DNA of 64,000 nucleotides from positions 62,001-126,000 of the forward strand of contig JAKRSH010000031.1 of the NCBI GenBank assembly GCA_022402465.1, given 5' to 3'. Shown here piece by piece: positions 34,039 through 40,790 of the stretch (position 1 is the stretch's first letter; each line of letters begins with the position of its first letter). The notes below the pieces were generated by a model that saw only the letters and a list, made by a program, of their open reading frames with translations, was not told the DNA's origin and ran no database searches. Made by a program: the position numbers and the translations under genes. Source of the DNA: Leptospiraceae bacterium (GTDB lineage: Bacteria; Spirochaetota; Leptospiria; Leptospirales; Leptospiraceae).

Positions 34039-34829
34039 TGTCATTGGTTGAAGTTGAGTATACAGAAAATTCTTCAGATGACATTTGTTATGTGTACTTA
34101 AATAATCCTAGTTCCAAAAATTCCATGACCTGGGCTATGGGAGAGCTATTCCAAAATCAGATGAATAAGCTTTCTGCTCTTAAACGTAAGCCTAAAGTCA
34201 TTCTTCTTTCTGGGAAGAACGATGTTTTTTGTGCTGGAGGAGATTTAAATCTTCTTCGAAGTTTCTCAAGCAAAACTTTTTCACAAAATAGAAAAGGAAT
34301 GAGAACCTTTTATAATTTCTTTCTATCAGTAAGAAAAGTTCCAATTCCTATTCTTTGTGTTGCAAAAGGTCATGCAATAGGTGCAGGCTTAGCTCTTCCG
34401 CTTGCCTGTGATCTTAGAATTTTTTCGAATGAAGGAAAATATTCTTTTAACTTTGTAAAATTAGGAATCCATCCTGGTATGGGAAGTTCTTATACAACTC
34501 CTGAATTGATAGGTAAGTCTAAAGCCAATCGTATGCTTTTTCTTGCTGAAACAATCAATGGTATACAAGCCGCAGAATGGGGATTATGCGATTATAGTTT
34601 TCCTAAAGAAGTAATCATGGAAGAAGCGAAGAAAATAGCTGATGGAATCTGTGAGGCAGCACCGCTTGCCATGCAGGAACTAAAGAAAAATTCCTATTCA
34701 GACAAAGCCTTACAAAAAGCTTTAAAGATGGAATCAGAGTCCCAAGCAAGAAACTTTATTAGTAAAGATTTTAAAGAAACCATGGCTTCCATAGTAGAAA
34801 AGAGAAAGCCCATATTTATTGGAGAGTAA
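34038..34829 (+). CDS. Enoyl-CoA hydratase/isomerase family (crotonase) protein
   Basis: 263 residues with the crotonase fold: NNPSSKNSMTWAM, the oxyanion strand FCAGGDLNLL, and KGHAIGAGLALPLACDLRI. In hydratases two glutamates (rat Glu144 and Glu164) activate water; here the matching positions are non-acidic (GAGLALPLA and FNFVKLGIHPG). It is therefore probably not a standard hydratase; an isomerase, a hydrolase or a non-enzymatic relative is more likely. Coupled to the upstream hypothetical by a one-base overlap, and overlapping the convergent lipoprotein gene by 14 bp. Confidence 0.86.
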   Translation: MSLVEVEYTENSSDDICYVYLNNPSSKNSMTWAMGELFQNQMNKLSALKRKPKVILLSGKNDVFCAGGDLNLLRSFSSKTFSQNRKGMRTFYNFFLSVRKVPIPILCVAKGHAIGAGLALPLACDLRIFSNEGKYSFNFVKLGIHPGMGSSYTTPELIGKSKANRMLFLAETINGIQAAEWGLCDYSFPKEVIMEEAKKIADGICEAAPLAMQELKKNSYSDKALQKALKMESESQARNFISKDFKETMASIVEKRKPIFIGE

Positions 34830-35292
34830 ATTTCTGAATAAGGCTATGTTTGGTTTCTTTTGTGATCAACAAATTGTAATTCAAAACTAAGCCTTCTTTG
34901 TTGCTTGTTTCAATTATAAATTGAATCTCTCTTTGGCTATCTAGATCTTTGTTTTCATAGAGCCAAGAATTATTTCTATTCCTCAAATCGATATAATTAC
35001 TACGAAGTTTCATAAAAGGAAGAGCACCTAACGATTTGTTGAATAAAATATTTCCTGATTTTAAATCCAATATCTTAAGTTGAACGCTTTCATTCTTCTT
35101 CCAGTGAACTAAGAAATCAATGACTACAAATAACTCCGCGTCCTTAGATTCAAAAGTAAGATAGCTATCTTGAATCTTTAAGTAGGCATTTTCATAATTT
35201 GTAGATTCAGAAGGATTCTTGTTCTGAAGAAATTTGCAATTTCCTAAGTTCGACGATAATACAATCACAATATATAGTAAAGTTTGTTTCAT
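34816..35292 (-). CDS. Hypothetical lipoprotein
   Basis: 158 residues. The signal MKQTLLYIVIVLSSNLGNC ends in a lipobox with Cys19. The mature part is beta-rich (ELFVVIDFLVHWKK, VQLKILDLKSGNILF, REIQFIIETS) and resembles an immunoglobulin-like or jelly-roll module; no family is recognised. It lies 2 nt after the adenylate cyclase gene on the same strand, so it is the third gene of the ODP-cyclase operon. Its 3' end overlaps the convergent crotonase gene. Confidence 0.75.
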   Translation of the reverse strand: MKQTLLYIVIVLSSNLGNCKFLQNKNPSESTNYENAYLKIQDSYLTFESKDAELFVVIDFLVHWKKNESVQLKILDLKSGNILFNKSLGALPFMKLRSNYIDLRNRNNSWLYENKDLDSQREIQFIIETSNKEGLVLNYNLLITKETKHSLIQKFTLQ

Positions 35293-35294
35293 AA

Positions 35295-37001
35295 TTAACT
35301 AGATAGAATTTCTTTTTTAGCTTCTAATTCTTTATCATGGCTTTGTTTCGAAATGATATACTTTCCATCTCTTCTCATGATATGCTTTCCATCTCTAAGT
35401 GCCTCGAATAGCTTATAGAAATTTATATTGGGTATAAATTTGGTATTGTCATTTTTAGCATAAAGTCCAGTTTTTAAACCAGATAATTTATAAAGATCAT
35501 GCATACCAACTCCTTTTAATTCTTTCTCACCTATGTAATCGAAATCAAAAAGATCTCTCGTAAAATCAAACATATTTCGTGATACAGTAATTTCTCCACC
35601 CTTTCCGACGCCTTCAATTCGTGCCGCAATATTAACAGTATGCCCCCAGATATCGAAGGCAATCTTTTGGTGTCCAACAATACCAGCAATTAAAGGACCC
35701 GAATGAATTGCTAAACGTATGCCCCAAGCATCTTCTCCTTGGAGTTTCAATTCTTCTCTGCGAGAGTTTGTAAATCTCATCATTTCTATTCCTGCTAGTA
35801 AAATATCAATACCAGCAGTTCTATGGTTTCCACTAAGACCTGCTACACAAAGAAATGAATCTCCTATGGTTTTAACTTTTTCAATTGAGTATATCTCACA
35901 GATCCTTTCAAACTCATCAAAGTAGATAGTAAGTTCCTTAAGAAGTTGGGTCGGGCTCATATATCGGGAAATCTTTGAAAAGCCAACAAAATCAGTAAAC
36001 ATAACAGCAACTTGGTCATATTGTACAGGTTGTACCTTGCCATATCTTTTAAGATCTTCAATCATATATCCTGGTAGAATATTGGACAGCAGTAGATCTG
36101 CTTTTTTCTTTTCTTCTGAAAGCAGGTTTTTATCACTATCCACCATATGATTGAGTAATTCTTTAACCAAGGTCTCTTTGTGGCGGTATCTAGAAATTCT
36201 TGATATTGCTCGGTAATAATCTTCTTCTTTTTGGTTATCAGAAGAAAATTCTCTTAGTATGATCATTACTTCATCTGTATCTATCTTTACAAATCTTGCT
36301 TCAATATTGTGATTTACTGAAGCATAATTCATATAAAATGATTTATTCACTAATTTATTGTTGGTTAAAACATTCTTTATTTCTTCCTGTAAGAGGCGTG
36401 ATGTATCCTGTGGAAAAATTTCACTCAACATTTTCCCTTGAATGGATTCTTTGCCTATCATTAGATTGATGATTTCACTATCGTTTGAAATTTTATAATC
36501 TAATATGATACCCTTGCTATTTGCTTGGATAAGATAATCTGGTTGAGCATTTAAAAGTGCAGTATTTTTTTTCTCAATACGTTTAATTACATTTTTATTA
36601 TCTAATAAATCCCATCTTGTAATGATCTTTTCTATAGAATTGTTTACAACTACAGCAAACCTTGAGGGAATATTTTGAATGATGTAATCCGAAACGCCTT
36701 TCTTGGTTTCATCGATGGCGCTTTGTAGAAAATCCATATTCGTATAAAGTATGAAAATGGTTTCCTTGGTTTTACTGCGGAAGTATTCCAAGGCATCCAA
36801 GCCCATTTCAGTCTCGGGTAAATAATCAGAGATCACGATTTCGGGCATCTTAGTTGGATTCGTATCCAACCAAGACGTAAGATTTTTGTATCTTGTTGCT
36901 ACTAACTTACTATCAAAATCTTTTAGAGCTGATTCAAGTTCTTCGTATTTATCCTCTTCTTGTATGAGAAAGAGTAAATGGATAGTATTAAAAGTATTCA
37001 T
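35295..37001 (-). CDS. Class III adenylate cyclase with REC and PAS-like sensor domains
   Basis: 568 residues. Residues ~5-120 form a receiver-like domain (D59 in VISDYLPE; the usual switch Lys is missing). Residues ~145-255 form a PAS-like module (NAQPDYLIQANSKGIILDYK). The cyclase domain begins near 325: metal ligands D337 (MFTDFVGFS) and D381 (IGDSF), ATP-selecting K377 and D450 (FDIWGHTVN), transition-state N457 and R461. All catalytic residues are present, so it should make cAMP. A dimerising helix (SEEKKKADLLLSNILP) precedes the catalytic domain. It lies 2 nt after the ODP-like gene. Confidence 0.92.
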   Translation of the reverse strand: MNTFNTIHLLFLIQEEDKYEELESALKDFDSKLVATRYKNLTSWLDTNPTKMPEIVISDYLPETEMGLDALEYFRSKTKETIFILYTNMDFLQSAIDETKKGVSDYIIQNIPSRFAVVVNNSIEKIITRWDLLDNKNVIKRIEKKNTALLNAQPDYLIQANSKGIILDYKISNDSEIINLMIGKESIQGKMLSEIFPQDTSRLLQEEIKNVLTNNKLVNKSFYMNYASVNHNIEARFVKIDTDEVMIILREFSSDNQKEEDYYRAISRISRYRHKETLVKELLNHMVDSDKNLLSEEKKKADLLLSNILPGYMIEDLKRYGKVQPVQYDQVAVMFTDFVGFSKISRYMSPTQLLKELTIYFDEFERICEIYSIEKVKTIGDSFLCVAGLSGNHRTAGIDILLAGIEMMRFTNSRREELKLQGEDAWGIRLAIHSGPLIAGIVGHQKIAFDIWGHTVNIAARIEGVGKGGEITVSRNMFDFTRDLFDFDYIGEKELKGVGMHDLYKLSGLKTGLYAKNDNTKFIPNINFYKLFEALRDGKHIMRRDGKYIISKQSHDKELEAKKEILSS

Positions 37002-37003
37002 AC

Positions 37004-37807
37004 CTATTTTTGAAGGGCTTTCCTCATATAATCATCATCTATTAAATCAAGACCGCATTTCAAATCCCAGAGTGATTGTATGATAGTATCTAGTTGCTGT
37101 CTTTTGATAATTTGTCCATGTTGAGGCGCTATGATTTCTGCGTCCACAGATCGAATTTTGAGAAGCGCATAACGAAGTGCTAGGTTAGAAGGCATATACA
37201 AAGATAAAAACTTCTTCATATTAGCGAGTGCTTGCTCGGTATGGTAGAGCTCCCAATCGGCACCTAGACCTCCTAGGATATCAGAAGTAAAGAGAACTTT
37301 AGACTTTACATCATATGTCATGATGGCTCCCGCAAAGTGAGCAAAGGGAGTCATTAGGAATTCAAGCTTTCGTCCATTGGGTGTTGTATAGATTGAATTA
37401 TCAGGAGACACCATATGCAAATGTCCTTTTACACCATAGTGTTTGATAAGATAGGACGCCCGTACCTCGGAAATAATGACATGTTCGTAGTCATTGCGAA
37501 GATCTTCAAAGATAGGAACTCCTGCACATAAGTCAGGATCTTGGTGTTGAAGAATGATGGTATCTATTGCTTGGGCTTGGATGATGGAGAATACTTTTCT
37601 TGCTACGATAGGGAAATCTGGTACAGAGCCTGGATCAATCAGTATCCCTGATTCATTGGATTTTATGAGGTAAGGATTGCAGTGCAATGCATCCTCTTCT
37701 GAGTAGAATCCTACCCAATATACACCATCGGCTATTTCTACTGCATAATTCGTATCAATATCAATTTGCAATTCTTGTGTTGAATTTGGATTATTTTTCT
37801 GTACCAT
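37004..37807 (-). CDS. Di-iron oxygen-binding (ODP/FprA-like) metallo-beta-lactamase fold protein
   Basis: 267 residues. Metal ligands run H88-Q-D90-P-D92, H157 (PFAHFAGA), D176 (FTSDILGG) and H230 (APQHGQ). This is the flavodiiron arrangement, with the usual H-x-E-x-D-H changed to H-x-D-x-D-L and with no flavodoxin domain. Such ODP proteins bind oxygen at a non-haem di-iron site; in Treponema denticola one is known to feed a chemotaxis system. It starts the operon with the adenylate cyclase and faces an FNR-like regulator, which suggests oxygen or NO sensing rather than hydrolysis. The function here is inferred. Confidence 0.85.
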   Translation of the reverse strand: MVQKNNPNSTQELQIDIDTNYAVEIADGVYWVGFYSEEDALHCNPYLIKSNESGILIDPGSVPDFPIVARKVFSIIQAQAIDTIILQHQDPDLCAGVPIFEDLRNDYEHVIISEVRASYLIKHYGVKGHLHMVSPDNSIYTTPNGRKLEFLMTPFAHFAGAIMTYDVKSKVLFTSDILGGLGADWELYHTEQALANMKKFLSLYMPSNLALRYALLKIRSVDAEIIAPQHGQIIKRQQLDTIIQSLWDLKCGLDLIDDDYMRKALQK

Positions 37808-37827
37808 ATGACCAGTTCTTGTGCTGT

Positions 37828-37843
37828 AATTTTAATTAAAATT
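37828..37843. promoter_or_regulatory. 16-bp perfect palindrome upstream of the ODP-cyclase operon
   Basis: AATTTTAATTAAAATT is a perfect palindrome centred about 28 nt upstream of the ODP start codon. The A+T-richness makes chance plausible, but the position suits an operator for the divergent regulator. Confidence 0.35.
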
Positions 37844-37888
37844 CTAATTCAGATTATATGATTTAGACCTTCCTCAAAAATAGATTTC

Positions 37889-37931
37889 TGTTTAAAAAAA
37901 ACATTGTCAAATATTAAGTAAAAAGTAGAAT
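37889..37931 (+). promoter_or_regulatory. Promoter of the FNR-like gene with an abutting inverted repeat
   Basis: TTGTCA (37904-37909), a 16-nt spacer and TAGAAT (37926-37931) form a good promoter, with AAGG about 10 nt before ATG 37951. TGTTT-N5-AAACA (37889-37903) ends at the -35 box and could be an autoregulatory site. Confidence 0.55.
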
Positions 37932-37950
37932 CATTCTAAGGTACACAAAT

Positions 37951-38682
37951 ATGAACGGTACAGATTTCGATTCGGAAAATCCTAATTGTGAAACTTGCAA
38001 CATAAGAACCAAAAGTATTCTGCAGAACGCGACTCCAGAGACTATAGAGAAAATCAACAATGGAAAGCATTTCAACAAACACAGTCGCGGGAATCATATT
38101 TTTAAATCAGGCGATTTAGCTTCAGGATTTTATTTTATCAAATCAGGTTTCGTAAGAAATTATAGAAGCACTGGCGGTAAGGAACAGACATTCAATATTA
38201 GAGGACCTGGGGATTGGATAGGTTTTAGAGATGCTATGTCAAGCGACTCTTTTTTCCATTCCTGTATCTGTTTGGAAGATGTAGAAACTTGTTTTATCAC
38301 CAAAGAGCTTACAGAAATATTGATGAAAGAAGACGAAAAATTCCAGTCTGAAGTCTTACGGCAAATGGCCAAAGAATGGAGAGAAAGCGAGAGCCAGGTT
38401 GTTTCCTTAGGGACCAAGCAAGTCCATTCCAAGCTAGCTGAGCTCCTCATTACACTCAAGGATGCAGCAGGCGGTTCGGATGAAATTGAAATCAAAATGA
38501 CTCGAGAAGTACTGGCTTCTATCATTGGTACTACTACAGAAACACTTGTTCGAGCTCTTACTGATTTTAAAAATAGAAATATTGTCCACGTAGAGAAGCA
38601 TAAAGTTACATTTCAAGATATGGCTACTTTGTATTCCTTATCAGAAATGGAATTGGACAAAATGGTAAAAGTTCACTCGTAA
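37951..38682 (+). CDS. Crp/Fnr-family transcription regulator with N-terminal CxxC
   Basis: 243 residues: cupin-like sensor domain (~40-135), a long dimerisation helix, and a winged helix-turn-helix (~170-225; LASIIGTTTETLVRALTDF with the FNR-like E-x3-R recognition pattern). Cysteines C13 and C16 (NCETC) plus C105, C107 and C114 are placed as in FNR, where N-terminal cysteines and one central Cys hold a [4Fe-4S] cluster. The third N-terminal Cys of E. coli FNR is missing, so cluster binding is plausible but not certain. It may instead bind cAMP. It diverges from the ODP-cyclase operon over 143 nt. Confidence 0.88.
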   Translation: MNGTDFDSENPNCETCNIRTKSILQNATPETIEKINNGKHFNKHSRGNHIFKSGDLASGFYFIKSGFVRNYRSTGGKEQTFNIRGPGDWIGFRDAMSSDSFFHSCICLEDVETCFITKELTEILMKEDEKFQSEVLRQMAKEWRESESQVVSLGTKQVHSKLAELLITLKDAAGGSDEIEIKMTREVLASIIGTTTETLVRALTDFKNRNIVHVEKHKVTFQDMATLYSLSEMELDKMVKVHS

Positions 38683-40355: not shown

Positions 40356-40790
40356 ATGCACCTCAGCAAATACACAGACTATTCCTTTCGTATCCTAATG
40401 TATCTCGGTACACATGAAGATCGTCTTGTCACTATTTCAGAAGTATCCAAACGCTACACTATTTCCAAGAACCATTTAGTCAAAATTGTACACCATCTCG
40501 CTCAAGCTGGTATTATTAAATCCGTACCAGGTAAGAAAGGTGGGATCACCCTAGGCAAGGATCCAAAGAAAATCAACTTGCTTGATGTCATTGAAATTAC
40601 AGAAAGTAATTTTGATCTAGCTGAGTGCTTTACGGAACATGGTTATTGTGTGATCCAAAACAATTGTAAGCTAACCAAAATTCTTACAGAGGCATTGTTT
40701 AGCTTTTTCAAAGTAATGGGTAAATACAATCTTTCGGACCTGCTAAGGAATGATCAATTGCGAAACCAACTCCGTAAAATGGCTGTATAG
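40356..40790 (+). CDS. Rrf2-family regulator, NsrR-like
   Basis: 144 residues. The winged helix-turn-helix is at ~1-65 (SKYTDYSFRILMYLG, TISEVSKRYTISKNHLVKIVHHL), with the GKKGGITLGKDP wing. Three cysteines C91, C98 and C104 (AECFTEHGYC...NNCKL) match the Fe-S ligand set of NsrR. NsrR senses nitric oxide and represses NO-detoxifying genes; the symbol is not given because other Rrf2 subfamilies share the triad. No obvious target gene lies beside it. It is 28 nt before mutL. Confidence 0.88.
   Translation: MHLSKYTDYSFRILMYLGTHEDRLVTISEVSKRYTISKNHLVKIVHHLAQAGIIKSVPGKKGGITLGKDPKKINLLDVIEITESNFDLAECFTEHGYCVIQNNCKLTKILTEALFSFFKVMGKYNLSDLLRNDQLRNQLRKMAV

Follow-up and report, generated by a model that had tools for sequence, protein, structure and literature searches.

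An ODP di-iron protein and the adjoining class III adenylate cyclase as a candidate sensory unit in a Leptospiraceae bacterium

Introduction

ODP proteins bind oxygen at a di-iron site, and the ODP of Treponema denticola serves chemotaxis. Class III cyclases are very numerous in these spirochaetes, and few of them, to our knowledge, have a known signal. The window analysed here, a stretch of 64,000 nucleotides from a Leptospiraceae bacterium (GenBank assembly GCA_022402465.1, contig JAKRSH010000031.1, positions 62,001 to 126,000), encodes an ODP-like protein directly upstream of a class III cyclase, and both genes diverge from the gene of a Crp/Fnr regulator. The initial annotation proposed that the oxygen state is passed from the ODP to cAMP and from cAMP to the regulator. 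Does the ODP act on the cyclase, through which part of it, and does the adjoining regulator read the product? The locus comprises the following features.

34816..35292, minus strand: putative lipoprotein (LGNC lipobox) of 158 aa, gene 3 of the operon, 2 nt after the cyclase stop
35295..37001, minus strand: class III (ATP-type) adenylate cyclase of 568 aa with a degenerate receiver (REC) and a PAS-like N-terminal part, PF00211 at 133 bits
36102..36233, minus strand: cyclase residues 257-300 (QKEEDYYRAISRISRYRHKETLVKELLNHMVDSDKNLLSEEKKK), a candidate ODP-coupling segment by a profile search in 393 genomes
37004..37807, minus strand: ODP, single-domain di-iron protein of 267 aa with the metallo-beta-lactamase fold, predicted O2/Fe(II) sensor
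37808..37950, no strand: divergent intergenic region of 143 bp, common to both transcription units, no FNR-box match
37951..38682, plus strand: divergent FNR-like Crp/Fnr regulator, closest PDB sequences FNRs

Results

The ODP protein

PF19583 is the sole Pfam domain of the protein encoded at 37004-37807 and scores 182.7 bits (E 9e-54) against a cut-off of 27.2. The solved proteins closest to it, in sequence as well as in fold, are the ODPs of Thermotoga maritima and T. denticola, and its ligands align with those of 6qrq and 6qnm. In a Foldseek search with its AlphaFold model (pLDDT 75), ODPs filled ten of the ten top places, the top matches being 6qrq, 6qwo, 6r9n and 6qnm. The six di-iron ligands listed in the initial annotation (H88, D90, D92, H157, D176 and H230) are all there and are invariant in three homologues of 60-62% identity. 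Position 93 is Leu, where zinc hydrolases have His. Pfam found no flavodoxin domain in the 267 residues, again in agreement with the initial annotation and at odds with a flavodiiron/FprA assignment, and no electron donor gene was found within the operon. By its sequence, the protein is a true ODP. Its signal would be O2 or Fe(II), O2 being carried over from the T. denticola ODP.

The rest of the genome holds one weak PF19583 match besides the cyclase-linked ODP. A scan with the window proteins gave no match in genome contigs and none in viral contigs, and an alignment-based scan returned named relatives, with Leptospira absent among them.

The cyclase and its operon

The ATG of the cyclase sits 2 nt past the ODP stop. 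Aligned to mammalian AC9, the cyclase has its entire active site, namely the metal-binding residues D337/D381, the adenine-binding residues K377/D450 and the catalytic residues N457/R461, so that the ATP-type site is complete on one chain; an intact cyclase at this spacing is what had been annotated. From this complete site, cAMP synthesis is predicted. The annotated receiver and PAS-like domains stand in part: the receiver retains E15/E16, D59 and T87, but its conserved Lys is replaced by Q109 and its PF00072 score of 17.3 bits lies under the cut-off of 30.2, which makes it a degenerate rather than a regular receiver, while the PAS-like stretch has no Pfam match. The structure model of the cyclase (pLDDT 41) is too poor for the PAS question or for placing residues 257-300.

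The gene of the putative lipoprotein is a third operon member, overlooked in the initial annotation. Its product has no Pfam, NCBIfam or PHROG match and no homologue in the 29 other genomes of the order, among which it is an orphan. The genome as a whole encodes 32 class III cyclase domains. PADLOC matched PycC to the window cyclase, but we rejected a Pycsar system: the catalytic domain accounts for the match, which any class III cyclase would be expected to give, and an adjacent effector gene is absent.

Orthologous pairs and a segment confined to ODP partners

Three genomes of the order, all of other genera (G148, G191 and G209), encode standalone ODPs 61-63% identical to the window ODP. The G191 ODP (62% identity) is followed, with a 4-nt ATGA overlap, by the orthologue of the window cyclase, which is 53% identical from residue 256 onwards at 364 bits; the runner-up cyclase among 30 genomes of the order reaches 208 bits. 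Homology between the two cyclases thus sets in at the segment, and in G191 the receiver domain is encoded apart, as a divergent gene. In G148, where the gap between ODP and partner is 2 nt as in the window, and in G209, the gene after the ODP encodes a PAS-Hpt-HATPase kinase; ODP and kinase belong there to a CheY-CheX-ODP-kinase cassette, which has a class III cyclase beside it.

All four ODP partners have only one well-conserved stretch in common, of about 45 residues with the pattern EEYYRAIS.I...R.KE.LI.ELLN. In 393 spirochaete genomes from 168 genera, of which the window genome is the only one from its genus, a profile of this stretch gave exactly four strong matches of 87-95 bits, the next best (19.5 bits) being at chance level. 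The carriers are the genes directly downstream of the ODP in the window genome (G000), G148, G191 and G209, and in G148 and G209 the segment is borne by a histidine kinase, not a cyclase. Two genus-mates of G209 (G151 and G175) have neither ODP nor segment. The segment is likewise absent from the window genome's other 31 cyclase domains and, among the 30 genomes of the order, from every other cyclase except the ODP-linked G191 orthologue.

The G148 and G191 loci are syntenic (a ribB-like protein at 76%, a small TPR-like protein at 62%, and others), with a kinase as output gene in one, a cyclase in the other, and the segment in both. Since the flanks are common and the output differs, the output domain has been exchanged at this locus while the ODP and the segment were retained. 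In the window cyclase, the segment is positioned just ahead of the transducer of the catalytic domain. The simplest reading of these sequences is that residues 257-300 are the site of ODP action, and we regard them as a candidate ODP-coupling element. The segment may instead be a mere dimer linker inherited with the locus, given that the four segment-bearing lineages may descend from, and probably share, one ancestral event.

ODP relatives as input modules

Relatives of the window ODP were searched in the 393 spirochaete genomes and their loci inspected. Those most similar to it are mostly joined to signalling output. They include ODP-SpoIIE-TPR fusions (e.g. loci L017-L023 and L054), ODP-GGDEF fusions, mostly with a receiver (L024, L034, L061 and L110), and ODP-class III cyclase fusions (L046, L047, L109 and L111, in genomes G140, G089, G321 and G258). 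The cyclase fusions of L109 and L111 belong to another family, and their ODP is degenerate or incompletely read, the reading of L111 having started inside the ODP domain. Since none of the ODP-cyclase fusions is an orthologue of the window pair, they lend separate support to the same coupling. In the L109 fusion (L109:2240-3901), the first His ligand of the ODP is lost (SQVRPD vs HQDPD).

Standalone ODPs are often followed by kinases (L043, L044, L053, L055 and L060). L043 and L044 carry a CheY-CheX-ODP-PAS-Hpt-HATPase kinase cassette, next to which a class III cyclase is encoded; this is a CheA-like ODP pathway without an MCP. CheY and CheX were named here by their sequences, with no profile match behind them. 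Five further standalone ODPs (L050, L051, L056, L106 and L107) precede a conserved small protein of 91-106 aa, which resembles the region after the ODP in the GGDEF fusions.

Other standalone ODPs are followed by HD-GYP proteins (L059 and L062-L066). In these Clostridia-type MAGs, the HD-GYP proteins follow or overlap the ODP, and their N-termini have a 38-aa segment in common (FDxFAxQxDxxIQNxLIxELM), to which the remaining ORFs of the set offer no strong match. It is possibly a second ODP-coupling segment, in this case for c-di-GMP breakdown. Comparison by HMM and by ungapped profile gave no significant homology between the segment of the cyclase and kinases and that of the clostridial HD-GYP partners; even the best-placed spirochaete segment, from G209, came only at about rank 205 among 3541 ORFs.

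The divergent regulator

The Crp/Fnr regulator, described initially by its NCETC motif and three further cysteines, indeed has five (C13, C16, C105, C107 and C114) and starts 143 bp from the ODP gene. FNR is defined by its binding of [4Fe-4S] and TTGATnnnnATCAA. The regulator contains a CNB-fold domain and aligns with FNR, not CRP. C13 and C16 correspond to C20 and C23 of FNR and C114 to C122, so that three of the four FNR cluster cysteines are aligned. An equivalent of C29 is missing from the window protein, whereas several orthologues of a neighbouring family (f2) possess one, with C-x2-C-x5-C. C13, C16, C107 and C114 are conserved in most orthologues, and C107 could substitute for the missing cysteine.

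The cAMP phosphate-binding cassette (PBC), GE(L/I)...R(S/T)A, is absent from the regulator, which has GFRD...FHSC instead and has lost the PBC Glu and Arg; among the genome's 29 CNB domains, at least eight others match a relaxed form of the cassette. Of the other seven genomes of the family, six or more have a clear orthologue of the regulator (43-51% identity), at positions unrelated to an ODP, and no Crp/Fnr gene lies beside the ODP pairs of G148, G209 or G191. We therefore dropped the step from cAMP to the neighbouring regulator, given the absent cassette, the location of the orthologues away from ODPs, the FNR-type alignment and the lack of an FNR box. Sequence features suggest that the regulator is probably a separate oxygen/redox sensor rather than a cAMP reader, and by its gene neighbourhoods it is no conserved member of the ODP-cyclase unit.

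The regulator may possibly control transcription of the divergent operon. It would then sense O2 or redox state via its cysteines, and ODP and regulator would serve one oxygen response at two levels. The 143-bp promoter region common to both and the conserved cysteines (C-x2-C, the residue aligned with FNR C122, and C107) are consistent with this scheme, which is compatible with the explanation that we favour. However, the third N-terminal FNR cysteine is missing in this family, linkage to the ODP is not conserved, no FNR box was found in 37808-37950 with up to two mismatches (98 matches in the whole window against 97 expected), and no operator common to the window regulator and the upstream regions of its orthologues was found. 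We consider such two-level control unlikely, albeit the least unlikely of the rival schemes.

A perfect palindrome, TAGAATCATTCTA, at 37926-37938 lies 12 bp ahead of the start of the regulator gene and overlaps the likely -10 element. Two kb from the FNR-like regulator, 40356-40790 (plus strand) encodes an Rrf2 regulator that contains three clustered cysteines (CFTEHGYCVIQNNC) and whose best NCBIfam match is RirA at 132 bits, under that model's cut-off, followed by NsrR. It is a putative further redox/iron regulator.

Discussion

We propose that the ODP and the cyclase form a two-component sensory unit in which the state of the di-iron site acts via residues 257-300 on cAMP synthesis, and we hold this to be fairly probable. 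The gene identities, the intact active sites, the translational-coupling spacing, an orthologous pair in another family and the ODP-cyclase fusions are established, and so is the finding that the segment occurs exclusively with this branch of ODPs and is kept where the output is a kinase. In the proposed unit, the di-iron site would bind O2 or report the Fe(II) or redox state, and the ODP would act on segment 257-300, which we infer to be helical and in physical contact with it. Synthesis of cAMP would be raised or lowered by the ODP, either sign being conceivable, the degenerate receiver and PAS-like N-terminus may add further inputs, and receivers elsewhere would answer the changed cAMP level. 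As a counterpoint, the T. denticola ODP uses an MCP for its signalling and no cyclase.

The pair may be real and its signal something other than O2, such as Fe(II) supply, NO, peroxide or another metal. By the title of the primary description (Muok et al. 2019, as listed in PMC10653840), the T. denticola ODP is reportedly a sensor of both Fe(II) and oxygen, which favours this reading, as does the T. maritima ODP, which crystallises with zinc too (6qwo). The conservation of all six di-iron ligands and the Leu in place of the zinc-hydrolase His at position 93 argue against it, and we rate it as rather improbable.

That the ODP is a flavodiiron-like enzyme detoxifying O2 or NO, which shares the operon without regulating the cyclase, is very improbable: it belongs to the same superfamily as FprA and flavorubredoxin, but flavodoxin domain and electron donor are lacking, cyclase, GGDEF and SpoIIE domains are found fused to its relatives, and the coupling segment is exclusive to ODP partners. 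Least probable of all is the full circuit first proposed, with the ODP as O2 sensor, the cyclase as the source of cAMP and the adjoining Crp/Fnr protein as its reader: the three genes do adjoin and the regulator contains a CNB fold, but the PBC Glu and Arg present in other CNB domains of the genome are missing from it, its nearest PDB sequences are FNRs, its orthologues elsewhere in the family lie away from ODP genes and, with 29 CNB and 32 cyclase domains in the genome, an adjoining gene is not needed as reader. Of that circuit, the link from ODP to cyclase is retained, supported by the orthologous pair, the independent fusions and the segment found only in ODP partners, whereas the link from cAMP to the regulator lacks support.

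Beyond the sensory unit itself, we speculate, with slightly less than even confidence, that ODPs are a general and interchangeable oxygen/iron input subunit, which works here in trans via a portable segment of about 45 aa. At the same chromosomal locus, evolution would have joined this segment either to a CheA-like histidine kinase or to an adenylate cyclase, the latter giving an O2-to-cAMP switch. The ODP-cyclase pair offers a signal, O2/Fe(II) at a di-iron site, together with a partner and a 45-residue coupling segment, all three of them testable. If the proposal is true, the role of ODPs widens from chemotaxis to second-messenger control, and the natural fusions and swaps of the ODP are a ready set for biochemistry. 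Our literature search found no paper on an ODP with a cyclase; the primary ODP paper (Muok et al. 2019) was outside its reach.

Several known systems resemble parts of this locus. The regulator matches FNR of E. coli and Aliivibrio fischeri in the CxxC pair, the C122-type cysteine and the GD-x-x-GF region, and differs from it in lacking a C29 equivalent and in having the additional C105/C107. The cyclase has its complete ATP-type site on one chain like homodimeric bacterial class III adenylate cyclases, and the segment sets it and its G191 orthologue apart from the others of the order. Among the described cAMP receptors of Leptospira is the GAF-GGDEF enzyme Lcd1 (PMC8846402). Hemerythrin-coupled diguanylate cyclases (Bhr-DGC) likewise couple O2 sensing at a di-iron site to the making of a second messenger (PMC8846402), but their di-iron fold is unrelated, the two parts are fused and the product is c-di-GMP. 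The ODPs of T. denticola (TDE2498) and T. maritima (6qnm, 6r9n, 6qrq and 6qwo) share the fold, the HQDPD/H/D/H ligands and the single-domain form with the window ODP, although they are only about 25-28% identical to it. Canonical ODPs beside small proteins with MCP-like sequence also occur in other genomes of the window's family. Both the T. denticola and the window ODP are genetically coupled to a signalling partner, which is the MCP-like TDE2496 in the former and a class III cyclase in the latter.
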